A DNA stretch of 39,281 nt from positions 1 to 39,281 of the forward strand of contig JASUSP010000014.1 in the NCBI GenBank assembly GCA_030446005.1. The letters are read 5' to 3'. Within the stretch, counting starts at the first letter, position 1; each line of letters opens with the position of its first letter. A model generated the notes under the pieces. It ran no database searches. It had not been told where the DNA came from and saw only the letters and a program-made list of their open reading frames with translations. Positions 15,325-25,131 of this stretch are shown piece after piece. The stretch is from Tepidanaerobacteraceae bacterium (GTDB taxonomy: Bacteria; Bacillota; Thermosediminibacteria; Thermosediminibacterales; Thermosediminibacteraceae). A program made the translations under genes and the position numbers.

Positions 15325-15355
15325 AAAAAGCTCCGGCAGAAATTACCGGAGTTTT
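15325..15355 (-). terminator. Intrinsic terminator of the native tRNA-Gly gene
   Basis: On the minus strand CTCCGG and CCGGAG arms (15346-15351 and 15331-15336) with a nine-base loop are followed by CTTTTTATTT. It lies directly downstream of the left tRNA-Gly copy, which suggests that this side is the original 3' flank of the host tRNA gene. Confidence 0.7.
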
Positions 15356-15372: not shown

Positions 15373-15447
15373 TGGAGCGGAAGACGGGATTCGAACCCGC
15401 GGCTCTCGGCTTGGGAAGCCGATGCTCTACCCCTGAGCTACTTCCGC
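15373..15447 (-). tRNA. tRNA-Gly(CCC), left copy (attL side)
   Basis: Complete 75-nt cloverleaf with acceptor arms GCGGAAG/CTTCCGC, D-arm, anticodon loop TTCCCAA (anticodon CCC), T-loop TTCGAAT and encoded CCA. It differs from the right copy by one base in the variable loop (15404). No recognisable promoter precedes it: the upstream DNA is element DNA. A terminator follows it. It is probably transcriptionally silent or dependent on element transcription, and marks the left attachment site. Confidence 0.9.
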
Positions 15448-15450
15448 CCG
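15373..15450. repeat. attL: 78-bp direct repeat
   Basis: Identical to 25054-25131 except one base (t at 15404, a at 25085). It covers the whole tRNA-Gly gene plus three bases at the 5' side. The crossover lies somewhere within it. Confidence 0.85.
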
Positions 15451-15454
15451 CAAC

Positions 15455-15473
15455 CCTTGATTTTTCTAGCTTT
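15455..15473 (+). repeat. Terminal inverted repeat, left
   Basis: Reading inward from the tRNA, CCTTGATTTTTCTAGCTTT. The right partner at 25034-25052 reads inward as CCTTGAAAAATCTAGCTTT. They match at 15 of 19 positions and differ only by TTTT against AAAA in the middle. Possible core or arm binding sites of the integrase. Confidence 0.7.
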
Positions 15474-15498
15474 CAGGGGGCGATTTTTTCACCTTCTT

Positions 15499-15514
15499 CA
15501 GAGACTTCGGACTC
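15499..15514 (+). repeat. 16-bp direct repeat, left (candidate integrase arm site)
   Basis: CAGAGACTTCGGACTC, identical and in the same orientation at 24996-25011. In the excised circle the two copies would flank attP on both sides at about 42-49 bp, the layout of arm-type integrase sites. Confidence 0.7.
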
Positions 15515-15587
15515 ACCCTCGTGTTTATTTTATTCGGCGTTTTTTATCAAATTCCTGCTCAAGTGGATGAGTTTTTTTAAAAGGCCA

Positions 15588-16856
15588 TCAGATTTTTCCT
15601 CTCTTGGGAAAGGTTTTTGTTTTACCCACCTGTTTTCTTACCCACTCAATAGACCTTCCCAATTCTTCTGCAATCTCTTCAATAGTTTTCCCTTCTTTGT
15701 ATAGCTTTTGGGCCTCTCTGACGGCCTCTCTATACTTTTTTACCCTTTCTTTATTAGCACATGTTTCATGTTTAGTCCATGCCACAGTCTTATCGGTAAT
15801 ATCTTCCCATCTTCCGCATACCGAACACCGTTTGAATTGCCTTTCCCCAACAACTGTAAGGTAAAATTGATACCACATTGCAGCTAGGAGGCTTTCAGGC
15901 ATGAGGTAAGGCTTTAGTTGATTCTTCTCGTCTAACAACAATCTAGGTTTTACAACGTATTTTTTTAATTTCTCGTTGATGGCTGCTTGTATATAGCAAC
16001 GGGCAGGTAACAATAAATCTCCTACAACAAAACGGGAAAATAATTCTTTTTTGTAGTCTCGAGCAGCTATATAGCTCAACTGCACTCTAAGCGGAACATC
16101 CTCTTTGGTTGGAAGGCTGTCATGAATTGCCCTTAATGTATCTTTGCTTTCTGTAACCTTACTGACATCGGCAGCGTTTTGGAATCGATTTAGAAGCACT
16201 AATTTAGGGATGTTTGTCTTTACGACACTTACCACTTCATTTTCTGCGTGCCAGAGAATAACCCTCTTCAAGAACTCTAAATCTTCGTTTTTGAGTGCCT
16301 CCCAGACATTAACCGCAAAGGCCATATCTTGGATTTCATTTTGCCAAAAGCGTAGGGATTCCCCGAAAACCATTGCATATTTGTTATTCTCCCTGTCTTT
16401 AAGTAGTCCATCAGTACCTAATACCCATTTAGGAGGTTTTTCTCCTTCTCTTAAGCGATAAGCCTCTGAAAACACTTGAGTTTCCCCATTTGGAAGTAAC
16501 ATACCGTACTTATTGGCAAACTCTAAAATTCCTTTGCGGGTTGGTGTTGTTTCAGCAAACTCCAGAAACAAGGTGGGATTTTCTTCAAGTGGCTTGTAGG
16601 GGTAGTACCCTTCTGTTTCTGGTAAGGGAAGCAGGAAAGGTGACGGTGATAAACCTTTCTCTTTCTCGATTTTTTTCCGTTCTTCATGAGACAGAGGAAA
16701 TTCCTCGAGAAAAAAAGGTTTACCGTCTTTTGTAGCTGCGAATAAACCGCCTGCCATAGCCTCCTCATCCCAAAAGTAACCTTTATCTGAACGGTGCCAA
16801 ATAAAAAAACTCTGCTGAATGTCGAGGTAGTCATACTTAGGGTAGCTCTCCATCAT
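15588..16856 (-). CDS. CGNR-like zinc-finger protein with C-terminal HTH
   Basis: Function unknown. Seen: 422 aa without membrane segments. The last third has LLAAMWYQFYLTVVGERQFKRCSVCGRW, then HETCANKERVKKYREA. This C-x2-C...C-A-N-K-x-R-V-x-x-Y-R pattern matches the CGNR zinc-finger consensus. The last 35 residues form a resolvase-type HTH (GKTIEEIAEELGRSIEWVRKQ). The N-terminal 300 residues have only weak family flavour (ILEFANKYGMLLP). Two ATG codons in a row are possible starts; ATG 16853 has the better eight-base spacing to GGAGG. It diverges from the XRE gene across a shared operator region. It may be a regulator, or accessory cargo such as an anti-phage or host-interaction factor. Confidence 0.75.
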   Translation of the reverse strand: MMESYPKYDYLDIQQSFFIWHRSDKGYFWDEEAMAGGLFAATKDGKPFFLEEFPLSHEERKKIEKEKGLSPSPFLLPLPETEGYYPYKPLEENPTLFLEFAETTPTRKGILEFANKYGMLLPNGETQVFSEAYRLREGEKPPKWVLGTDGLLKDRENNKYAMVFGESLRFWQNEIQDMAFAVNVWEALKNEDLEFLKRVILWHAENEVVSVVKTNIPKLVLLNRFQNAADVSKVTESKDTLRAIHDSLPTKEDVPLRVQLSYIAARDYKKELFSRFVVGDLLLPARCYIQAAINEKLKKYVVKPRLLLDEKNQLKPYLMPESLLAAMWYQFYLTVVGERQFKRCSVCGRWEDITDKTVAWTKHETCANKERVKKYREAVREAQKLYKEGKTIEEIAEELGRSIEWVRKQVGKTKTFPKRGKI

Positions 16857-16874
16857 ATCAACCTCCCTTTAGTT

Positions 16875-16934
16875 GTAATGGTAAATGTTATGCCATATAG
16901 GTTAATGTAATGGTAAATGTAACTTGATTACCAT
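16875..16934. promoter_or_regulatory. Divergent operator region of the element
   Basis: GTAATGGTAAATGT occurs at 16875-16888 and again at 16907-16920, exactly 32 bp (about three helical turns) apart. A shorter inverted copy TTACCAT lies at 16928-16934. The region separates the divergent zinc-finger and XRE genes. A TTGATT -35-like hexamer (16924) overlaps the third motif and TATTAT (16951 or 16954) could be its -10. These are likely repressor sites for the XRE protein. Confidence 0.55.
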
Positions 16935-16999
16935 GTCTGTTCAGGTTTACTATTATTATAGCAGAAACCTAAGCAACACGCAAGGAGGGTTAACATCTC

Positions 17000-17245
17000 A
17001 TGGTCACAAATTTGAGGATATTGCGGGTAAAGCGTGGCTTGACTATCCGTAAGCTGGCTAAAGAACTAGAAATTCATGAGTGCTGGCTTAACAGAATGGA
17101 ACTAGGCCAAAGCTACATACCACCACACTTGCGACAGAAAATTGCCGATTTCTTCGGCGTGCAGGTCTCCGAAATCTGCGATGAAGCTACCGGTTGGCCT
17201 ATCTTGGTGGACATGGAAATGCCGAAGCTGGTACGGAAGGCGTAA
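17000..17245 (+). CDS. XRE-family HTH regulator
   Basis: Small DNA-binding repressor. Seen: 81 aa, with an almost complete Cro/CI-type HTH at residues 4-58 (LRILRVKRGLTIRKLAKELEIHECWLNRMELGQSYIPPHLRQKIADFFGV). AGGAGGG lies 11 bases upstream. It is the first plus-strand gene of the element, so it is the best candidate master regulator of lysogeny and replication. The gene after it is separated by 95 bp with no clear terminator. It lacks an extra C-terminal peptidase domain, so RecA-stimulated self-cleavage is not expected; induction would need another signal or an antirepressor. Confidence 0.85.
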   Translation: MVTNLRILRVKRGLTIRKLAKELEIHECWLNRMELGQSYIPPHLRQKIADFFGVQVSEICDEATGWPILVDMEMPKLVRKA

Positions 17246-17340
17246 AAGGTCAAGAAAATCGAATACCATCCGCTTGTTCTGCAGGCTTTAACTGCGAAAG
17301 GGCAAGCGAAAAGAGAAACTTGCAAGAGGGGTGAAGAAAC

Positions 17341-17565
17341 TTGACTTTAAGGGAAGCAGTAACTCATTTTTCCCAAACCAAAGACCCTGCAATTCTTGAA
17401 AAGATTCGCAAGAAGTATGGTAGTTACGGATTTTCTCTTGCGTGCAAAATAGCGGGAATTAAGAGAAGGGAGGGAAAACGTATGTTAGGCATATACGACA
17501 ACACAAAAACCATTAGGTGGCTCGCAAATAAATTATGCGGAATAAAAACTCTGAAGTGGCAATAA
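17341..17565 (+). CDS. Small hypothetical protein of the element
   Basis: 74 aa, not recognised. Seen: TTG start preceded by AGAGGGGTG at a fitting distance. The protein is basic in its second half (KIAGIKRREGKRMLGIYDNTKTIRWLANKLCGIKTLKWQ) and has the pattern of a small helical DNA-binding or Cro-like protein. There is no membrane segment. It is followed three bases after its stop by a strong nine-base-pair hairpin. Ribosome site and position in the early operon support that it is expressed. Confidence 0.5.
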   Translation: MTLREAVTHFSQTKDPAILEKIRKKYGSYGFSLACKIAGIKRREGKRMLGIYDNTKTIRWLANKLCGIKTLKWQ

Positions 17566-17568
17566 AAA

Positions 17569-17595
17569 AAGGCCGGATATTCAAACTCCGGCCTT
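17569..17595 (+). terminator. Hairpin between two small element genes (attenuator-like)
   Basis: Perfect arms AAGGCCGGA (17569-17577) and TCCGGCCTT (17587-17595) with a nine-base loop, followed by AAATCTTT and then AGGAGG of the next gene. The U-tract is poor for a full terminator, so partial termination or transcript processing is more likely. A related hairpin with CCGG arms lies at about 17962-17985 before the replication gene. Confidence 0.5.
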
Positions 17596-17616
17596 AAATC
17601 TTTAGGAGGTGTTTTT

Positions 17617-17955
17617 ATGAAGATTAAAAGGAACGGCATTCCCCTTTACGTCAATTATCAGGGGAAACAAGTAGTTTCCGGTATTCTCGGCCACGACAAG
17701 GTTTTCCGAAAATCAGTCGAAACAAAGCAAAAGCTCATTGTAATGGACGCATACGGCATTGACGAACCAAATTTTGAAGAACTAAAAGCCCTCGGTTGCG
17801 AAATGATTGAACTTATCGAACGAGATACGGGGAAGAAATATCTTATTGATTTTGCCACATTCGAAAAAATGGCTGTTCCTCGTAAAATAGGGAAATTTAA
17901 TGTTCGGTATTATCTGCCATTACGATATTGGCGAAAAGTGGAAGCAGTCGTTTAA
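17617..17955 (+). CDS. Hypothetical protein of the element
   Basis: 112 aa, not recognised. Seen: AGGAGG eight to nine bases upstream of ATG. The protein is mixed alpha/beta, with a beta-rich start (IPLYVNYQGKQVVSGILGHDKVFRKSVETKQKLIVMDAYGID) and a basic end (KIGKFNVRYYLPLRYWRKVEAVV). It has no Cys clusters, signal peptide or membrane segment. It lies between two hairpins and 66 bp before the replication gene, so it probably belongs to the early replication operon. Possible roles are a single-strand DNA or nuclease-inhibiting accessory protein; this is a guess from position only. Confidence 0.6.
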   Translation: MKIKRNGIPLYVNYQGKQVVSGILGHDKVFRKSVETKQKLIVMDAYGIDEPNFEELKALGCEMIELIERDTGKKYLIDFATFEKMAVPRKIGKFNVRYYLPLRYWRKVEAVV

Positions 17956-18021
17956 TTCAAAGTCCGGATGAAATGACCGGGTCTTAATTCTTTTTCAAAG
18001 AAAACAAAGGAGGGATGAAAA

Positions 18022-20799
18022 ATGCCTCTCACTTCTAATATACCAACTCTTGACTATGCTGTCGAGTATAAAAAACAAGGCTGGAAGGCAATCCCCATCC
18101 CCTTGAAGCATAAAAACCCCACATTAAAAGAATGGCAAAAACTACGTCTTAGCGAAGAAGAAATTAGACGAGTGTTTTCAAAACCTTCAAATATTGGCGT
18201 CCTCTTAGGTGAACCCTCTGGCTGGCTTGTGGATGTTGACCTTGACGACTATCTCGCTGTTAAATTAGCTCCATATTTCCTGCCATTCACCGAAGCAATC
18301 TTCGGTCGGGATTCAAAGCCTTCTTCCCATTGGCTTTATACCTGTTTTGGTGCAAAAACGACAAAGTGGCAAGGCATTGATGGAGAAATGATTGTGGAGT
18401 TACGTTCTACCGGTTGCCAAACAGTATTTCCGCCTTCAATCCACCCCTCTGGCGAAACTATCACGTGGTATAAGGAAGGGCGACCCATCCAAATAAGCAG
18501 GGATAAACTTGAAAAGGCGTGTTCAAGGCTTGCCTCTGCTGTCCTTCTCGCTAAACATTGGCCCTCTCAAGGAACAAGGCAGGACACCGCTTTGGCCCTT
18601 GCAGGAGGATTGATTCGTCTGGGATGGGATGAAGAAGAAGCAGAAAAATTTATTGAAGCTGTAACCGTAGGAGCTGGAGACGAGGAAAGCAAGTCGAGGG
18701 TTAGGACGGTGCTTTACACTGCGAGAAAAGCAGGGAGCTCACCAACAACCGGTTGGAAGCGATTGAGTGAACTCGTTGGCGAGGAAGTAGTCTCCAAAGT
18801 CCTGGCATGGCTCGGATGGAAGAAGCAGGAGGAAGTTTTTGAAGACCCTCCAAAGAAGGAGAAAGAAAGGGAATCTCAGGCCCAAAGCCTTGTTAACCTT
18901 GCCTTATCCTCCGGCGTGGAACTCTTCCATACCCCCGACGGCAACGCTTATGCTACCGTGCCGGTTAATGGCCATAAGGAAACTTGGCCCGTATCCTCAA
19001 GGGGGAGCGGGCCTTTCCGGAACTGGCTAAGGAGGATATTCTTCGAGAAACACGGCAAGCCCCCCGGAAGTCAAGCCCTGCAAGACGCAATAGGAGTGTT
19101 AGAGGCAAAAGCTCAATTCGATGGCCCCGAATATCCGGTTTTCACGAGGATTGCGGAACATGACGGCAAAATATACATTGACCTTGCCAATGACACTTGG
19201 GAAGCGGTAGAAATATCACCAATGGGCTGGCGGGTAATAAGCGACTGCCCGGTGAAATTCCGGCGGTCAAAAGGAATGTTACCCCTCCCACGACCAGAAG
19301 CGGGAGGCAGTATAGAGGAATTAAAGCCGTTTCTAAACATTCCGGATGAAGATTCATGGCGTCTAATAGTGGCGTGGCTTTTAGCGTCAATGCGTCCAAA
19401 AGGGCCTTATCCGATATTGCTACTCCAAGGAGAGCAAGGAAGTGCCAAATCCACCACATCTAAGGCATTGCGGGCATTGATAGACCCGAACACCGCTCCA
19501 TTGAGGACATGCCCGAAGGACGAACGGGATTTAATGATAACCGCAACGAATTCATGGGCCGTTAGCTTTGACAATCTTTCCGGTATTCCTGTATGGCTAT
19601 CTGACGCACTTTGTCGCCTTGCTACCGGTGGAGGATTCTCGACAAGGACGCTTTACGAGAACGACGAAGAAACGATTTTCTCCGCTTGTCGTCCATTAAT
19701 TGCGAATGGCATTGATGAGATAGCCTCGAGGCATGACCTACTGGATAGGGCTATAATCATTCACTTACCACCCATACCGGAGGAAAATCGAAAAGATGAG
19801 GCCCAATTTTGGGCCGAATTCGAGAAAGCAAGGCCACGAATCTTTGGGGCACTTCTCGACGCCGTTAGTGCAGGACTGCGGAATATAGATAGCGTCCATC
19901 TCGACCGCCTGCCCCGTATGGCCGACTTTGCGAAGTGGGTAACCGCCTGTGAGGAAACATTACCTTGGCCCTCGGGTGGATTTATGGAGGCATATATGGG
20001 CAATCGAGAAGAAGCAATAGAGGTGGCACTTGAAGGTGACATCGTGGCGGTGGCAGTTAAGAATTTACTCGAAGAACGGGAAGAATGGGAAGGGACTGCA
20101 AGTGAACTGCTGGAAGCGTTGGAAGTTTTTATAGACGATACCACGAAAAGAAGCGTCGTATGGCCAAAAAATCCGAGAGCATTAAGCAACCGCTTGCGTC
20201 GCTGTGCCACGTTCTTAAGGCAAACAGGGGTTGAAGTAGAATTTCTGAGAGCGGGGCATAACCGCCAACGACTAATTAGATTAAAGCGGAAAATTTGCGT
20301 CCGCAACGTCCGCAATGACCTCCAAAGCCTTGAGGATACTGGGCTTGAGGTGCGGACGATATGCGGACGAAGTGCGGACGTTGCGGACGATATGCGGACG
20401 ATAAAAAGAAATTTATCGTCCGCAACGGAAGCCTTGAAAGACAAGGGATTGAACACTGCGGACAACAAAGCGGACGATGCGGACGATAAAATTCCCCTTC
20501 AATCTAATGACATGCAAGACCACCTTTGGGATATACTCCTAAAACTCGCAAAAGAGAATCATCCTGAAGCATACGAACCGCTGAAGGCCCTCCGAATAGC
20601 TGGAGTGGTATTGATAAAATCGGAAAGAGGCTGGAGATTCAAGGCTAAAATAGGCGACCTATTCAACACAAAGCAGGACTTTGAAGAATGGATTAGGCGG
20701 TATATCCTACCGCATAAGCAGGCGATTAAAGACTTATTCGATAAGCTGGAAGAAGAAACAAATAAAGCTAATTCTACCCCGGAGGTATGGGAATTATGA
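18022..20799 (+). CDS. Replication protein: prim-pol primase fused to a phage/satellite-type ATPase
   Basis: Likely initiator of element replication. Domains in order: an AEP prim-pol domain at 10-170, with metal motif VDVDLDD (Asp71, Asp73), nucleotide motif SSHW (His103) and VELRSTG (Glu126). A primase C-terminal helical segment lies at about 195-235. A P-loop ATPase starts at about 440, with Walker A GEQGSAKST (470-478) and WAVSFDNLSG. A winged helix with WPKNPRALSNRLRR ends near 752. A low-complexity linker (752-822) is built from GCGGAC/GTCCGC DNA repeats and reads as CVRNVRN and ADDADD. A C-terminal domain of unknown type follows (830-925). An AGGAGGG site precedes the ATG. The last codons overlap the next gene by four bases. 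Helicase activity is inferred from related proteins. Confidence 0.85.
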   Translation: MPLTSNIPTLDYAVEYKKQGWKAIPIPLKHKNPTLKEWQKLRLSEEEIRRVFSKPSNIGVLLGEPSGWLVDVDLDDYLAVKLAPYFLPFTEAIFGRDSKPSSHWLYTCFGAKTTKWQGIDGEMIVELRSTGCQTVFPPSIHPSGETITWYKEGRPIQISRDKLEKACSRLASAVLLAKHWPSQGTRQDTALALAGGLIRLGWDEEEAEKFIEAVTVGAGDEESKSRVRTVLYTARKAGSSPTTGWKRLSELVGEEVVSKVLAWLGWKKQEEVFEDPPKKEKERESQAQSLVNLALSSGVELFHTPDGNAYATVPVNGHKETWPVSSRGSGPFRNWLRRIFFEKHGKPPGSQALQDAIGVLEAKAQFDGPEYPVFTRIAEHDGKIYIDLANDTWEAVEISPMGWRVISDCPVKFRRSKGMLPLPRPEAGGSIEELKPFLNIPDEDSWRLIVAWLLASMRPKGPYPILLLQGEQGSAKSTTSKALRALIDPNTAPLRTCPKDERDLMITATNSWAVSFDNLSGIPVWLSDALCRLATGGGFSTRTLYENDEETIFSACRPLIANGIDEIASRHDLLDRAIIIHLPPIPEENRKDEAQFWAEFEKARPRIFGALLDAVSAGLRNIDSVHLDRLPRMADFAKWVTACEETLPWPSGGFMEAYMGNREEAIEVALEGDIVAVAVKNLLEEREEWEGTASELLEALEVFIDDTTKRSVVWPKNPRALSNRLRRCATFLRQTGVEVEFLRAGHNRQRLIRLKRKICVRNVRNDLQSLEDTGLEVRTICGRSADVADDMRTIKRNLSSATEALKDKGLNTADNKADDADDKIPLQSNDMQDHLWDILLKLAKENHPEAYEPLKALRIAGVVLIKSERGWRFKAKIGDLFNTKQDFEEWIRRYILPHKQAIKDLFDKLEEETNKANSTPEVWEL
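20279..20484 (+). repeat. GTCC/GGAC repeat cluster 1, inside the replication gene
   Basis: A 24-bp leader (20279-20302: GATTAAAG..., ending TTGCGTCC) is followed by NCGTCCGCA repeats. The hexamer GCGGAC or its complement occurs eleven times between 20299 and 20484, with spacings of 9 and 11 bp inside the runs. A perfect 12-bp inverted repeat, arms 20394-20405 and 20412-20423 (GCGGACGATAAA and complement), lies in the middle. Two more copies of the leader occur at 22702 and 23668. Confidence 0.8.
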
Positions 20800-21140
20800 C
20801 GCCCGAGGCCATCGTCGAGGAATTGGAGAAAAAAGGCGTCAAAATCACCGTCGCCGGGGACAAGTTACGGCTTGAGGCCCCGGCTGGCGTCCTCACTCCA
20901 TCGCTGAAAGAACTCATAGCACGCAATAAGGCCCAAATTATCGAGTGGCTAATGAATCCTACTACCGATTGCGGTGGCAAGGTGGTTAAGCTATACCGTG
21001 CAAGGCCCGAGTGCATTAAAGCGGGTTACTGCTTGCGGTTTACTAACAACTGCGACCTATTCCCTCTCACTTGGCGGTGGGGATGGTGCAGGGAAAGGAT
21101 AAGTATGGCAAGGCCCAAAAGGAAGGCAGGGGGAGGATAA
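20796..21140 (+). CDS. Small protein with a TubC docking-like N-terminal domain
   Basis: Function unknown. Seen: residues 1-52 (MTPEAIVEELEKKGVKITVA, then GDKLRLEAPAGVLTPSLKEL, up to IIEWL) have the pattern of the TubC N-terminal docking domain, which is common in small proteins next to mobile-element primases. The C-terminal 60 residues hold four Cys (ECIKAGYC, NNC, GWC), which could bind a metal, and a basic tail. The start at 20796 is chosen because its ATG overlaps the stop of the replication gene (ATGA) and GGAGG lies ten bases upstream; the ATG at 20787 is only one base from that site. Likely role: protein-protein contact with the replication protein, an inference from coupling. Confidence 0.7.
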   Translation: MTPEAIVEELEKKGVKITVAGDKLRLEAPAGVLTPSLKELIARNKAQIIEWLMNPTTDCGGKVVKLYRARPECIKAGYCLRFTNNCDLFPLTWRWGWCRERISMARPKRKAGGG

Positions 21141-21152
21141 AAATTTCCTCCC
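21131..21152 (+). terminator. Hairpin at the end of the replication operon
   Basis: Arms GGGAGGA (21131-21137) and TCCTCCC (21146-21152) overlap the stop of the preceding gene. There is no good T-tract behind it, so it may stabilise the 3' end or act as a weak terminator. Confidence 0.35.
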
Positions 21153-21435
21153 TTCCCTGCCAATGACCCGCCGGGCACTCGCTTGCGTGAAAAAATCCCC
21201 CATAAAAGTGAGGGTTGTCGGCATTACCGACTACCCTAAGGGCATACCGAAACTTCGGGCTTGCTCTGGAGAACCGGCGGGCGGGCAGGCTTGCGTTTGC
21301 AAAATTCCCTTTATCTCGCAAGAGGGGGTGCGTTTAAATCGCACCCCCGGCTTAAGGTGGCAGAAGCACGCTGGAGACCGGCGGGCAGGCCCTCCAAAGA
21401 CCCCGGAATATACTCTTTCACGAGGGGGGATTGAA
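21141..21435 (+). other. 295-bp GC-rich leader with direct repeats and a strong hairpin
   Basis: No convincing gene. Seen: CTGGAGAACCGGCGGGC (21266 onward) recurs as CTGGAGACCGGCGGGC (21371 onward), 105 bp apart. A perfect 9-bp hairpin has arms 21324-21332 (GGGGGTGCG) and 21340-21348 around a TTTAAAT loop. A frame open from 21163 through this region joins the next gene but lacks a ribosome site at its start. The GC content is visibly higher than in the flanking element genes. Possible structured leader RNA for the activator gene. Confidence 0.4.
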
Positions 21436-21906
21436 ATGCTACACACATTAAGGCCCATCATCAAGCAGATTGAGTATTACCTTTTCAATTACCCTGCCTT
21501 GAGGGAGGAACTCGCAAAAGCGAAGGAGGACATATTTTCCCTCAAGGCACATTGGCCGGACAAACCTCCTACCGGGAGTCCTTCCAACCCTACGGAAAAA
21601 GCAGTAACTTTGTATGAGTCGAAGTATGGCAAAGCCGAAAAGTGGCTGAACCTCATCGTGTGGGCCTTGCACATAGCTGGAGCAGAAGACCCCGCAATGC
21701 GGAAGCTGGTCGAGTTACGGTATTTCAATGGCAAGGAAATTGAGGAAATAGCCCGGGAGCTACACATCGACCCTGTCACCTGCGAACGCTGGCAGGAGGA
21801 TTTTCTTGTCCTTGTTGTCCTGCTTGCGGTAGAGGAAGGGCTAATAAGCGTCAAGCAGTCAATTCAGGAAAGCCCTTGCTATTGGGGGAGGGCTGATGAT
21901 GGATGA
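21436..21906 (+). CDS. ArpU/RinA-like phage transcriptional activator
   Basis: Sigma-factor-like late-gene activators of temperate phages have this layout. Seen: 156 aa with an N-terminal helical part and a long amphipathic segment (EKAVTLYESKYGKAEKWLNLIVWAL). The C-terminal HTH is MRKLVELRYFNGKEIEEIARELHIDPVTCERWQEDFLVLVVLLAVEEGL, a sigma-70 region-4-like pattern. The start at ATG 21436 has GAGGGGGG about seven bases upstream. Oddly, no late genes follow: downstream is the 1.2-kb repeat region. It may act on the element's own repeat region or on a helper phage. A small-terminase-like HTH protein is the main alternative identity. Confidence 0.6.
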   Translation: MLHTLRPIIKQIEYYLFNYPALREELAKAKEDIFSLKAHWPDKPPTGSPSNPTEKAVTLYESKYGKAEKWLNLIVWALHIAGAEDPAMRKLVELRYFNGKEIEEIARELHIDPVTCERWQEDFLVLVVLLAVEEGLISVKQSIQESPCYWGRADDG

Positions 21907-22218
21907 ATTTTCCACCCTATGAACCGACTGCAAAATATTGCACTTGCCAAAAATTGTAATGTCAAGAATAGCTTAAACACTTACATTGCGAATTTGTTAG
22001 GATTGCCTTCTTGAATACGGAAACTTCACGCTGTAGTGGTAGTATTCTCTGCTATAATTGAGCTGTTTATACCCAAAAACAAAAGTTTATAGCCTTTTTT
22101 TGCGGATATGCTGTCAAGTTTTAAACTTTGTCCTTACAAACAATTAGCGTCAACTTTAAGACTGTATTTGTAACTTTTACTGCACTACTTGACAATCTCA
22201 AGACTGGATTACGCATTG

Positions 22219-22266
22219 AACCGCAATATTTTGCAGTCCTCAATCCGACTGCAAAATATTGCGGTT
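22219..22266. repeat. 20-bp perfect inverted repeat
   Basis: Arms 22219-22238 (AACCGCAATATTTTGCAGTC) and 22247-22266 with an eight-base loop, followed by TTTTAA on the plus strand. A third partial copy of the arm, GACTGCAAAATATTGC, lies at 21926-21941. It can act as an intrinsic terminator, an origin hairpin, or a protein-binding dyad. Confidence 0.85.
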
Positions 22267-22310
22267 TTAACCTTTCCCCTTCGGCCTATCGTTTAAAGCT
22301 GTTAATGTTA

Positions 22311-22430
22311 CCTAAACACTCAGGCAGAGAACATTAACAACCTTAACACTCAGGCAAGGAAGCGTAACAACCGTAACACTTACACAAGGAAGTGCAACAA
22401 CTGAAACATTCGCTTAATTTAGTGCAACAG
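22311..22430 (+). repeat. Four tandem 30-bp iterons
   Basis: Units at 22311-22340, 22341-22370, 22371-22400 and 22401-22430 are in exact 30-bp register. Common pattern: C-C/T-N-T/A-AACACT at the start and GTAACAA or GCAACA at the end. Units 1 to 3 share most positions; unit 4 is more diverged. The layout matches initiator-binding iterons of plasmids and satellites. Confidence 0.75.
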
Positions 22431-22487
22431 GCAAAACGAACGTTGTCAAGCGTGACATCGGCAGTTTTTAGCTTGACACATTGACAG

Positions 22488-22520
22488 AAAGGAGCACAAA
22501 AGGAGCGAAAAAGGAGCACA
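22488..22520 (+). repeat. Three 11-bp tandem repeats (AAAGGAGCACA type)
   Basis: Exact 11-bp units at 22488-22498, 22499-22509 and 22510-22520; the middle unit ends GAA instead of ACA. They follow a TGTCAAGC/GCTTGACA dyad (22444-22451/22471-22478). Confidence 0.8.
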
Positions 22521-22701
22521 TTTTTTGGGGTATCCCCATTTTACGGATGCCTTTCTGCCTCGGGAAGTCATTTGCTAAGAAATGCTAAGACTGCAAAGGG
22601 TATTCCAACTTGGAACACTCTTGCGACTTAGTAAAACTTAGGATAAATAGGACAAAGCGGGACAAAATGAGACAATGGCACACCTCGGAAGGTAGTCACT
22701 A

Positions 22702-22754
22702 GACTAAAAGCGAAAACTTGCGTCCTCATCGTCCGCAACGTCCGCATTGTCCGC
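22702..22754 (+). repeat. GTCC repeat cluster 2
   Basis: A 24-bp leader (22702-22725, GACTAAAAGC..., ending TTGCGTCC) is followed by 9-bp units of the form NCGTCCGCA; GTCCGC at 22731, 22740 and 22749 is spaced exactly 9 bp. It matches the cluster in the replication gene. Confidence 0.8.
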
Positions 22755-22776
22755 ACTCTTGCGTTGGGAAAAAGCA

Positions 22777-22956
22777 GGCAAAAGGAGGGCAAAAAGTAGG
22801 CAAAACAGAGAAAAACGGGAGAGAAAAGGGAGAGAAAATAACACCATCGGGAAAGGGTGCAAAAGAGTAGCATAAGGGTTGCAAAAACGACAGAACGACG
22901 ACAGAAGAACGGCAGGAAAAACCGAAGCAAAAGAGAAGCAAAAGAGAAGCAAAAGA
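22777..22956 (+). repeat. Phased A-tract arrays with 11-bp period
   Basis: GGCAAAA starts at 22777, 22788 and 22799; GAGAAAA starts at 22808, 22821 and 22832; GAAGCAAAAGA is perfectly tandem at 22924-22934, 22935-22945 and 22946-22956. A-tracts repeated near the helical pitch are expected to bend DNA. The strand is almost pure A/G over long parts. Confidence 0.75.
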
Positions 22957-23137
22957 GGTGCAATTGAAACAACCTCGAGAAATTCGAGGCCATAGTAACT
23001 GGCCCAAAATTGGACTCGTTGAATGCAGGGCCTTGCGTTAAAGGCAGGAGGCGGAAATTGGCTCAAAATGGCTCATTATTGCTCACCGGCACACTTGAGA
23101 ATATGAGCAAAGATTGGACAAAGGGAGGTAAGTTTTT

Positions 23138-23374
23138 ATGGGATGGTATATTACGAAATATGGCAAGGTCTTTTTCCAACCGGACGTCGAGGACATTATC
23201 GAGCTTGAAAGAACCAAAAGGGCACGGACAAAAACAAGTAAATCCCGGAAGGAAGACCATAGGACAGCCTACTGTAAAAATTGCGGCGAACCTCTGGATA
23301 GTCTAGAAGATGAAATTTGTCTGGAGTGTGGCTGGATTATCTGCCCAATGTGTGGGGATTGCGGTTGCACATAA
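23138..23374 (+). CDS. Small double zinc-ribbon-like protein
   Basis: 78 aa, function unknown. Seen: GGGAGG eight to nine bases before ATG. A basic middle (RTKRARTKTSKSRKEDH) is followed by a Cys-rich end: CKNC, CLEC, CPMC, then CGDCGCT-like pairs, enough for two zinc sites. Such proteins often bind nucleic acid or RNA polymerase. It is the only plus-strand gene downstream of the repeat region and ends just before a bidirectional terminator. Position suggests expression from within or through the repeat region. Confidence 0.7.
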   Translation: MGWYITKYGKVFFQPDVEDIIELERTKRARTKTSKSRKEDHRTAYCKNCGEPLDSLEDEICLECGWIICPMCGDCGCT

Positions 23375-23405
23375 AAAAATAGCCCCGTAATGGGGCATAA
23401 TTTTG
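23373..23405. terminator. Bidirectional terminator
   Basis: Arms GCCCC (23382-23386) and GGGGC (23392-23396). On the minus strand it is followed by TATTTTTTT, a good intrinsic terminator for the 61-aa gene; on the plus strand by ATAATTTT. Confidence 0.7.
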
Positions 23406-23411
23406 TGTGGC

Positions 23412-23597
23412 CTATGTTTGCGTCAATCCTCTATCTTGCATTGCTTTATGGGCCTTGGAAACAACCTCAAAAAACTCGCAAGCGTCCTCCATCAACCCTT
23501 TTGGGACTATTAAGGCCGGTTTTTCGGTGGCGTTATCGCCTACCGGAATACAAAGCATTGGCCTGCTGGAATTTTGTGAAACATAGAAGGCTAACAT
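23412..23597 (-). CDS. Small hypothetical protein of the element
   Basis: 61 aa, not recognised. Seen: AAGGAGAGGG with eight-base spacing before ATG and an intrinsic terminator seven bases after the stop, which together make it a convincing gene. Sequence: an N-terminal beta-strand part (MLAFYVSQNSSRPMLCIPVG), then IVPKGLMEDACEFFEVVSKAHKAM, a helix. The plus-strand frame over the same DNA has no ribosome site. It lies on the same strand as the integrase but 227 bp away from the gene before it, with repeat cluster 3 between them. Confidence 0.65.
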   Translation of the reverse strand: MLAFYVSQNSSRPMLCIPVGDNATEKPALIVPKGLMEDACEFFEVVSKAHKAMQDRGLTQT

Positions 23598-23667
23598 AAT
23601 TTATCCCTCTCCTTCCTTAATTTTTTTCTCCTACCCTTCAAGGCGAAAAAAAACATGCAGGGCATTA

Positions 23668-23766
23668 GATTAAAGGAGAAATTTTGCGTCCAGTGCGTCC
23701 ATATCGTCCAAACCCTTACGTATCAAGGCTTTCCGATTGGACGATAAAATTTTTCTATCGTCCAAT
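23668..23766 (+). repeat. GTCC repeat cluster 3 with an 11-bp dyad
   Basis: A 24-bp leader (23668-23691, GATTAAAGGAG..., ending TTGCGTCC) has GTCC units at 9-bp spacing (GCGTCC at 23686 and 23695, TCGTCC at 23704). Then a perfect inverted repeat has arms ATTGGACGATA (23736-23746) and TATCGTCCAAT (23756-23766). The GGACGATAAA...TATCGTCC dyad recalls the one in the replication gene (20394-20423). A 226-bp gap without a gene contains it. Confidence 0.75.
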
Positions 23767-23823
23767 TGCGATTTTTGCGTCCAATATGGTTGTCTCCCTC
23801 GAAACCATTTACTAAAATCATTC

Positions 23824-24030
23824 TTAAAACGGCAGTTTTACCTTAATTCCCTTTTCCTCTAACTTCTCCACCAGCGAGTAGGCGGAAAAGCCTATTGCCT
23901 CTATATACCACTCTACCAAATCCTTTGCCTTCGGGTCGTCTTTTTCTATGGCCTCCCAAATCCCCTCATAGATGGCAAAAGTAACGGGAATATACAAATC
24001 TTTCGGGATTGAAATTTGCTTTACCTCCAT
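23824..24030 (-). CDS. Small hypothetical protein cotranscribed with the integrase
   Basis: 68 aa, not recognised by family. Seen: its ATG overlaps the integrase stop by one base (TAATG) and GGGAGGGG lies upstream, so translation is coupled. The protein is acidic and helical (ISIPKDLYIPVTFAIYEGIWEAIEKDDPKAKDLVEWYIEAIGFSAYSLVEKLEEKGIKVKLPF). It has no basic HTH, so it does not look like a classical excisionase, although the position would suit one. It could be an integrase partner or an unrelated small regulator. Confidence 0.65.
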   Translation of the reverse strand: MEVKQISIPKDLYIPVTFAIYEGIWEAIEKDDPKAKDLVEWYIEAIGFSAYSLVEKLEEKGIKVKLPF

Positions 24031-24980
24031 TATCTCGCCCCTCCCGGCAGTTTTCTCGGTGCTCTCTTGCCTAACTGCTGTAACTTCTGCACGGGAGAAG
24101 CCTTTTCGTGGACTTCCTTTATATCATCCTGGGAAAGCCTGACATACCGCCTTGTCATTGTCAAATCAGTATGACCTAAAATTCTTTGAAGGCTGAACGG
24201 GTCACCGCCTGCTTTGAGGAACTCGATGGCGAAGGTATGGCGTAAACCGTAGGGAGTGGCTTTTACTCCTGCTTTCTTGCAGTATTTTGCCAATCTTTTC
24301 GACCACCACGACGTATTTAAAGCATTTCCGTTTTCCGAAGCAAACAAAGGCACATCATCACCCCACCATGATGGGCGAAGTCTCAAGAACTTCACCAACG
24401 CTTGTGCTGTATGGGGCGATATTGCCAAAGTCCTGCCGATTCTTGTCTTTGCCACTTCGGGCCTTATCCGTATTTCTCTCGATTCAAGGTTGAGGTCTGA
24501 CACCCTCACTTGCAATAACTCCCCGGGCCTTACTCCGGTATCAATCTGCACGAGCATAAGGCAGTAATCCCTAAGGCCCGTATAGGTCTTTTTGTCCGGC
24601 TGTTGGAGGAGTTTTTTCAACCCCTCAAGAGTAACATGCCTTGCGTTGTCTATGTCCTCTCTGGCCTTCTTAATCCCTGCGGTAGGATTGGCGGGGAGAT
24701 AACCTTCCCGCACGCACCAATTGAAAAAGGCCCGGAGATATTTCAGCTTTATATTTCTGTAACCCGGCGAACAAGGTTGGCTGAAATAACGCAAGACCGC
24801 TTTTTGTATTGCCTCATAATTGGATAGGCTATTGCAGAATTCGAGGAACTTCCCCACATGCCAACGGTAGTCCTCTAAGGTGCGTTGAGATAGGCCATTT
24901 GCCTGCCTTACAAGGAGGAATTCCTGCAAAACCTGTTTTAAGTCGGCCGTGTTTTGTTTAAACTTCACCAATTTACGCAT
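24030..24980 (-). CDS. int: Tyrosine recombinase/integrase
   Basis: Catalyses site-specific integration and excision at tRNA-Gly. Seen: 316 aa; N-terminal SAM-like core-binding domain (about 12-105), then the catalytic domain. Arg I is R151 in DTGVRPGELL. Box II is TPYGLRHTF, with R247 and H248; the usual His of HxxR is Tyr244 here. H270 in LGHTDLTMT and nucleophile Y279 in RRYVRL complete the set. ATG 24980 lies eight bases after GGGGAGGG. That site is the 3' arm of a terminator-like hairpin (24989-25023), so synthesis is probably restrained. It lies directly downstream of the tRNA genes, on their strand. Confidence 0.93.
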   Translation of the reverse strand: MRKLVKFKQNTADLKQVLQEFLLVRQANGLSQRTLEDYRWHVGKFLEFCNSLSNYEAIQKAVLRYFSQPCSPGYRNIKLKYLRAFFNWCVREGYLPANPTAGIKKAREDIDNARHVTLEGLKKLLQQPDKKTYTGLRDYCLMLVQIDTGVRPGELLQVRVSDLNLESREIRIRPEVAKTRIGRTLAISPHTAQALVKFLRLRPSWWGDDVPLFASENGNALNTSWWSKRLAKYCKKAGVKATPYGLRHTFAIEFLKAGGDPFSLQRILGHTDLTMTRRYVRLSQDDIKEVHEKASPVQKLQQLGKRAPRKLPGGAR

Positions 24981-25023
24981 AAATAAAACCCTCCCCAGAG
25001 ACTTCGGACTCTTTTTGGGAGGG
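24981..25023 (-). terminator. Terminator hairpin that also covers the integrase ribosome-binding site
   Basis: On the minus strand CCCTCCC (25023-25017) and GGGAGGG (24995-24989) pair around a 21-base loop, followed by TTTTATTT and then the integrase ATG. The loop is almost exactly the 16-bp direct repeat (24996-25011). The same GGGAGGG is the integrase Shine-Dalgarno. Termination after the restored tRNA-Gly and translational blocking of int are both plausible. Confidence 0.6.
24996..25011 (+). repeat. 16-bp direct repeat, right
   Basis: CAGAGACTTCGGACTC, identical to 15499-15514. Here it forms the loop of the hairpin before int. Confidence 0.7.
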
Positions 25024-25033
25024 CAAGTCCGTT

Positions 25034-25052
25034 AAAGCTAGATTTTTCAAGG
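25034..25052 (-). repeat. Terminal inverted repeat, right
   Basis: Plus-strand AAAGCTAGATTTTTCAAGG, ending one base before the tRNA repeat; partner of 15455-15473 with only a central TTTT/AAAA exchange. Confidence 0.7.
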
Positions 25053-25053
25053 C

Positions 25054-25128
25054 TGGAGCGGAAGACGGGATTCGAACCCGCGGCACTCGGCTTGGGAAGC
25101 CGATGCTCTACCCCTGAGCTACTTCCGC
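25054..25128 (-). tRNA. tRNA-Gly(CCC), right copy (attR side, likely the functional one)
   Basis: Complete 75-nt gene with anticodon CCC and encoded CCA. It has its own good promoter upstream and lies 56 bp after tRNA-Glu, so this copy keeps the host 5' end and promoter, while its 3' part comes from the element. It restores a working tRNA after integration, as is usual for tRNA-targeting integrases. Confidence 0.93.
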
Positions 25129-25131
25129 CCG
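25054..25131. repeat. attR: 78-bp direct repeat
   Basis: Matches 15373-15450 except at 25085. Confidence 0.85.

Follow-up and report, generated by a model that had tools for sequence, protein, structure and literature searches.

The window analysed here is a stretch of 39,281 nucleotides that forms the entire contig C44 of genome G000 (completeness 83%), from a thermophilic clostridial bacterium. At a tRNA-Gly(CCC) gene it carries a 9.7-kb element with attachment (att) copies 9681 bp apart, which we regard as probably a helper-packaged phage satellite resembling the phage-inducible chromosomal islands (PICIs). The bacterial family is represented by nine genomes (G000-G008); same-genus relatives include G002 (Fervidicola ferrireducens) and G003 (Thermovorax subterraneus), and G007 is a metagenome-assembled genome from the same family, the Thermosediminibacteraceae. 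From the left, the gene order is P0001 on the minus strand; XRE, p74, p112, PrimPol-D5, TubC_N and ArpU on the plus strand; a long non-coding stretch; a zinc-ribbon gene; and p68 and the integrase gene (int) on the minus strand. A preliminary description had listed int, XRE, prim-pol/ATPase and an ArpU/RinA-like activator, and the content is as it stated, the ATPase being of the D5 type. Pfam, PHROGs and NCBIfam revealed no virion, lysis, relaxase or coupling genes in the element, and PADLOC returned only a generic helix-turn-helix (HTH) and no defence call. The features are as follows (L-numbered loci and lineage B are introduced below).

15331-15351, minus: host terminator-like hairpin, outside the left att copy only
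15373-15450, minus: left att copy, a complete tRNA-Gly(CCC) without host promoter, host terminator after it
15455-15473, plus: left inner arm, CCTTGA-TTTTT-TCTAGCTTT, inverted-repeat partner of 25034-25052
15588-16856, minus: P0001, 422 aa, C-terminal HTH and Cys zinc-finger-like motif; regulator or cargo
16857-16999, no strand: P0001/XRE divergent intergenic region with two TAATGGTAAATGT repeats, operator candidate
17000-17245, plus: XRE-family regulator, 81 aa
17341-17565, plus: p74, kept in L054 (62%)
17617-17955, plus: p112, kept in L049 and L054 (74-82%)
18022-20799, plus: replicase, 925 aa, N-terminal Prim-Pol and D5-type helicase
20298-20486, plus: in-gene array of CGTCCGCA/TGCGGACG repeats, origin candidate
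20796-21140, plus: small TubC_N-domain protein
21436-21906, plus: ArpU/RinA-like late activator (phrog_36, 9e-16), start set by homology with L046
21907-23052, plus: non-coding module, packaging-site candidate, 80-84% conserved in L046 and L049
22220-22265, no strand: two palindromes ACTGCAA-N4-TTGCAGT, one mismatch each, starting at 22220 and 22248
22720-22756, plus: second cluster of the replicase-gene repeat
23138-23374, plus: zinc-ribbon-like protein, 78 aa
23824-24030, minus: p68, after int; 65-80% identical in lineage B
24030-24980, minus: tyrosine integrase, 316 aa
24988-25024, minus: hairpin pairing the int Shine-Dalgarno, then a T-rich run; conserved in related int leaders
25034-25052, minus: right inner arm, CCTTGA-AAAAA-TCTAGCTTT
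25054-25131, minus: right att copy, tRNA-Gly(CCC) with host promoter

ARAGORN placed tRNA-Gly(CCC) genes at 15373-15447 and 25054-25128, both on the minus strand and adjoining tRNA-Glu and tRNA-Lys; an Rfam scan matched only tRNAs. The att direct repeats had been called perfect; their 78-bp length stands, but they are near-perfect, with 77/78 positions identical and one mismatch. The host Lys-Glu-Gly promoters lie upstream of the right copy, and the left copy precedes the host terminator-like hairpin, as had been claimed. Promoter-like sites occur on the right side only (TTGACA-17-TAGTAT at 25407-25379 and TTGACT-17-TATAAT at 25170-25142); these sites match the consensus, such matches being about as frequent in this region as in shuffles; their positions are nonetheless as expected. 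The claim of a host terminator only on the left stands, but the element brings a terminator-like hairpin of its own behind the right tRNA copy.

In G001, G006 and G008 a single tRNA-Gly lies between purA and a peptidase gene, and the alignment, which includes 10 bp of the window's left flank, continues across it into the right flank. G003 and G004 also have a single tRNA-Gly, but after it come 94-99 bp that match the int end of the element (94-96% identical) and, judged by sequence, are scars of lost copies. The preliminary description had proposed looking for such empty sites and had named as the opposing case that close relatives all carry two tRNA-Gly(CCC) genes around these same genes; in these five genomes there is one. 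These comparisons show that insertion at tRNA-Gly(CCC) is real and that the tRNA is kept intact. The left copy carries the mismatch base of the empty G001 site and the right copy that of G002, G003 and G004, and strand exchange therefore probably took place 5' of this base. No prophage was seen at the tRNA-Gly site, few prophages existing for comparison. The G002 tRNA-Gly site (L102 1-11569, L103 1-20) holds a different element, resembling an integrative and conjugative element, that encodes a type IV coupling protein (T4SS-DNA_transf, 5e-60), a DnaG/DnaB-like fusion and small membrane proteins. Over the inner-left 70 bp it is 97% identical to the window element, so both elements use closely similar att sites. 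A 1.8-kb remnant with a truncated integrase lies between tRNA-Gly(CCC) and a partial repeat in G121 (L065 7406-9232).

Related elements of 7.8-10.1 kb share the layout of the window element; the preliminary description had suggested searching for the same order at tRNA-Gly, and the layout was found, at tRNA-Glu, -Thr, -Leu and -Lys genes instead.

Lineage A: L046 in G005, 9.26 kb, tRNA-Glu
Lineage A: L047 and L048 in G002, same element as L046, divided over contigs
Lineage A: L049 in G007, about 8.3 kb
Lineage A: L054 in G072, 7.78 kb, tRNA-Thr
Lineage A, more distant: L061 in G056, 7.95 kb, tRNA-Leu
Lineage B: L052 in G003, 10.1 kb, tRNA-Lys
Lineage B: L050+L133 in G007, 55-bp overlap, tRNA-Leu

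The repeated att core in these relatives is the 3' 48-50 bp of the tRNA (L046, L054, L052) or 77 bp (L061). Lineage B has a CHC2-type primase and a separate D5-type helicase, the latter 59-62% identical to that of the window; it also has an AlpA-like gene, and no recognised Xis was found in the window, where p68 is a possible excision factor. D5-helicase relatives occur across many phyla, most of them without other family genes. Aligned over 6.9 and 2.2 kb, the copies in G005 and G002 share 99.4% and 98.1% identity, against only ~68.5% for their host flanks, which shows recent transfer between genera; by this measure the element family is mobile across genus boundaries. The reading frames of the window element are intact and its genes are under purifying selection (dN/dS of 0.08-0.26 against relatives). 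The ends of the G007 contig L049 are its two att copies, so this contig yielded no circle junction. Two satellites in G002 break at the same two points (contig ends C1:216033, C18:1, C12:65553 and C31:22304; L051, L047, L132 and L048), equivalent to window positions 22065 and 22451 and with identical end sequences, which suggests that they have a near-identical ~390-bp segment in common. We left one candidate out of the family: L062 (1154-10089 in G060), at tRNA-Trp, shares the integrase (57% identical) but carries a restriction-modification-like operon and lacks the replicase.

No family element has capsid, portal or conjugation genes. Four relatives do carry terminase genes. L054 and L061 encode a TerS-like protein (phrog_2538, 7e-11 and 2e-9); L052 and L050+L133 have TerS plus a split TerL. 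The L052 TerL is divided over two genes (phrog_7579, 3e-65; Terminase_6N, 7e-17; Terminase_6C, 4e-6), L133 has the same pair, and the L052 TerS call reflects position before TerL only, its product P0013 having no PHROG match. These cassettes sit between the TubC gene and p68-int. The same slot in the window, L046 and L049 instead contains ArpU, palindromes and 1.1 kb of non-coding DNA, the last 78 bp of which are 92% identical to L052. The ArpU frame of L054 is cut off after a few codons, and the shared CTCGAGGCCATA sequence and then TerS come next, an arrangement as expected if modules had been exchanged.

The two palindromes (18 bp, 28 bp apart) follow ArpU, with a further single copy at 21927. 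The pair recurs in L046, L049, L052 and L133, and a pair also stands upstream of a gene in the degraded prophage of G006; among 2.9 million viral contigs searched for exact occurrences there were two matches, this prophage being one. The prophage (L134 1-10400, L226 11404-19901) is rearranged and has TerS-like, TerL, portal-like and capsid-like genes. Upstream of ArpU, the window (21141-21435), L046, L049 and L054 have a non-coding leader of 295-590 nt with conserved ends, which in the window contains a GGGGGTGCG/CGCACCCCC hairpin without an Rfam match and may be a structured RNA.

In both lineages the replicase gene carries, at 71-99% of its length, an array of closely spaced short repeats that run in either orientation, with 7-11 repeats per 250 bp compared with codon-shuffle maxima of 4-7. 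The unit differs for each element: CGTCCGC in the window, GTCCGCA in L046, CGTCACC in L052, CGTCGCA in L050, CGTCCCC in L053, AAGTAAC in L049 and GTGAATA in L054. The replicase genes of L061 and L060 have no such array. This pattern is consistent with an origin that is specific to its own initiator.

At every locus read with this integrase type, int lies downstream of a tRNA gene (once a tmRNA gene) and in the same direction. The leader that separates int from the tRNA gene contains a hairpin that sequesters the Shine-Dalgarno, with a T-rich run after it. The mean Shine-Dalgarno pairing probability was 0.94 in 14 leaders compared with 0.60 in 49 other element genes (Mann-Whitney p = 7e-7, an optimistic value since the leaders are related; one scar leader was read one base off). 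Taken alone, the window leader has an unexceptional fold energy (z -0.6), and in a MAFFT alignment the stems of the leaders are out of register. The hairpin likely stops or mutes int read-through from the host tRNA promoter; a literature search found no paper on this arrangement.

P0001 and XRE are divergently oriented with repeats between them, and their repressor function is putative. Other elements have divergent relatives in the P0001 slot. Three of these (P0017, P0018 and P0019) belong with it to a highly variable family (20-28% identity) that keeps the Cys zinc-finger-like motif. The AlphaFold model of P0001 is poor (pLDDT 53), only its C-terminal HTH being fairly confident, and a regulator or defence cargo are the candidate roles.

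Our preferred interpretation, held with some confidence, is that the element is a PICI-like satellite of the cos/pac-site type without TerS, its packaging by a helper being inferred. It draws on the empty sites and scars, the recurrence of this layout in other genera at different tRNA genes, and copies that are 98-99% identical between flanks of ~68% identity. It also draws on TerS or TerS with TerL in the equivalent slot of relatives that lack virion genes, the conserved non-coding module where TerS is missing, the palindrome pair common to a prophage, the fused primase-helicase with repeat arrays, and the intact, selected genes. In such a cycle, P0001 and/or XRE would hold the element silent until a helper phage lifted the silencing. 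In the integrated state int sits immediately downstream of the host tRNA operon and is oriented like it, the conserved hairpin probably ending or blocking its expression. On induction Int, perhaps with p68, would excise the circle, the PrimPol-D5 protein would replicate it from the repeats within its own gene, and ArpU or a helper equivalent would act at the palindrome pair. Because this lineage lacks TerS, its DNA would enter helper capsids via a cos/pac-like site in the 1.1-kb non-coding module.

Several results count against this interpretation. Pfam portal and HK97 capsid models had no match in G000-G008, and no helper was found. The window copy, L046 and L049 have no terminase gene; no cos or pac site was identified by phage match, the non-coding module having no DNA match in public phages, and its conserved block, as an exact pattern, had no match in viral contigs. 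Binding of the palindrome pair by ArpU is suggested by position only, and the int of the window lies at the end opposite the regulators in the linear map. The G006 prophage remnant has no ArpU match; it is the only place outside the satellites where Terminase_6N occurs in G000-G008. In other searches, public phages gave only distant matches to the replicase, plasmids only distant D5-helicase matches, and viral contigs searched by PrimPol and ArpU no confirmed match. Spacer-like short matches in 40 relatives were not convincing, a 33-bp match of 88% in G028 being near chance. Virulent phages act as inducers of the satellites of Streptococcus thermophilus (PMC13376191); by analogy, the helpers here may be virulent phages, or transfer may take another route.

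The preliminary description had left the choice between a satellite and a self-replicating element, and TerS and TerL without capsid genes in relatives favour the former. The latter, an integrative plasmid with no dedicated transfer, would spread by natural transformation or chance packaging, its relatives having acquired terminase genes separately. It would account for the complete replicase with origin-like repeats, the missing TerS in the window, L046 and L049, and the near absence of prophages from the family, and S. thermophilus satellites are able to move by natural competence (PMC13376191). We nonetheless consider it unlikely, as ArpU, the prophage-shared palindromes and terminase cassettes in the same slot would be useless without a phage. 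The coupling-protein element at the G002 tRNA-Gly site, with its 97% identical inner arm over 70 bp, raises the alternative of a mobilisable element that hitchhikes on conjugation through an oriT-like sequence; this is quite improbable, given that no family member has a relaxase or coupling gene and that the terminase genes point to a phage. A decayed prophage with its early genes retained would explain int, XRE and ArpU, which are of phage type, ArpU normally standing upstream of late genes. That origin is hardly plausible for a compact 7.8-10-kb set that, devoid of virion genes, recurs in several genera and at several tRNA sites, with intact genes under purifying selection and complete copies recently transferred.

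Beyond the satellite interpretation itself, we put forward as a doubtful but possible extension that the elements, in thermophilic Clostridia, form an independent satellite lineage whose control follows a logic of its own. Here int would be placed in host tRNA read-through with a hairpin hiding its ribosome-binding site as off-switch, and excision would join int to the regulator gene. The cos-like module would be exchanged with TerS or TerS-TerL cassettes, the operator would be common to helper late genes, and the hosts would be almost without prophages. As satellites, the elements would represent a family from thermophilic anaerobes that is mobile between genera, in which the swapping of packaging modules, terminase genes for non-coding DNA, can be seen, together with a rule for silencing an integrase sited directly behind a host tRNA gene. 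They would also raise the question of which helper serves hosts in which prophages are nearly absent.

Most satellites known so far were found in well-studied pathogens, lactic bacteria and marine bacteria. The preliminary description had supposed that the element could be a new family; this is partly right, in that the group is undescribed as far as the searched literature shows, yet of a known kind. P4-like satellites have a multifunctional primase-helicase replicase, repeats near the replicase and a tRNA target, and the window element shares all three, but no P4 capsid-size or transactivation genes were seen in it (a comparison by gene content, not by sequence). PICMI elements, found next to fis in Vibrionaceae with three core proteins, likewise have a minimal excision and replication gene set, no TerS or capsid-remodelling gene, and packaging by a helper, but differ in hosts and target (PMC10803314). 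The StCI satellites of S. thermophilus resemble the present group, gene comparison aside, in their satellite-rich, prophage-poor hosts and their integrase, regulation and replication genes, and differ in hosts (PMC13376191).

Closest are the PICIs and SaPIs, in which int lies left of the repressor gene (rpr) in the same direction, and of which, among those of Gram-positive bacteria, some encode TerS and others carry a phage cos or pac sequence (PMC6092414); the window element would be of the latter type. PICIs are further defined by two divergent regulatory genes, one of them a master repressor, by a primase and a replication initiator, sometimes fused, with an origin after them, by an excision gene (xis) beside the replication genes, by att sites that prophages never occupy, and by induction, packaging and interference involving a helper phage. 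Shared features are Int, a putative divergent regulatory pair, a fused primase-replication protein with origin repeats (function putative), TerS in some members and a presumed cos/pac type without it in others, and no virion genes. Differences are the size (9.7 kb against ~15 kb, a typical value and no strict limit), the ArpU and TubC_N genes, the split TerL in one lineage and the lack of a known helper. The position of int had been taken as a misfit to the classical PICI layout; the linear map does differ, but the argument is weakened, because the layout can be read as a circular permutation of the PICI map. On the predicted circle int would lie downstream of P0001 in the same direction, with att between the two, as int follows rpr in PICIs, only the att site being placed differently. 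We claim not PICI membership but that the element works like a PICI.

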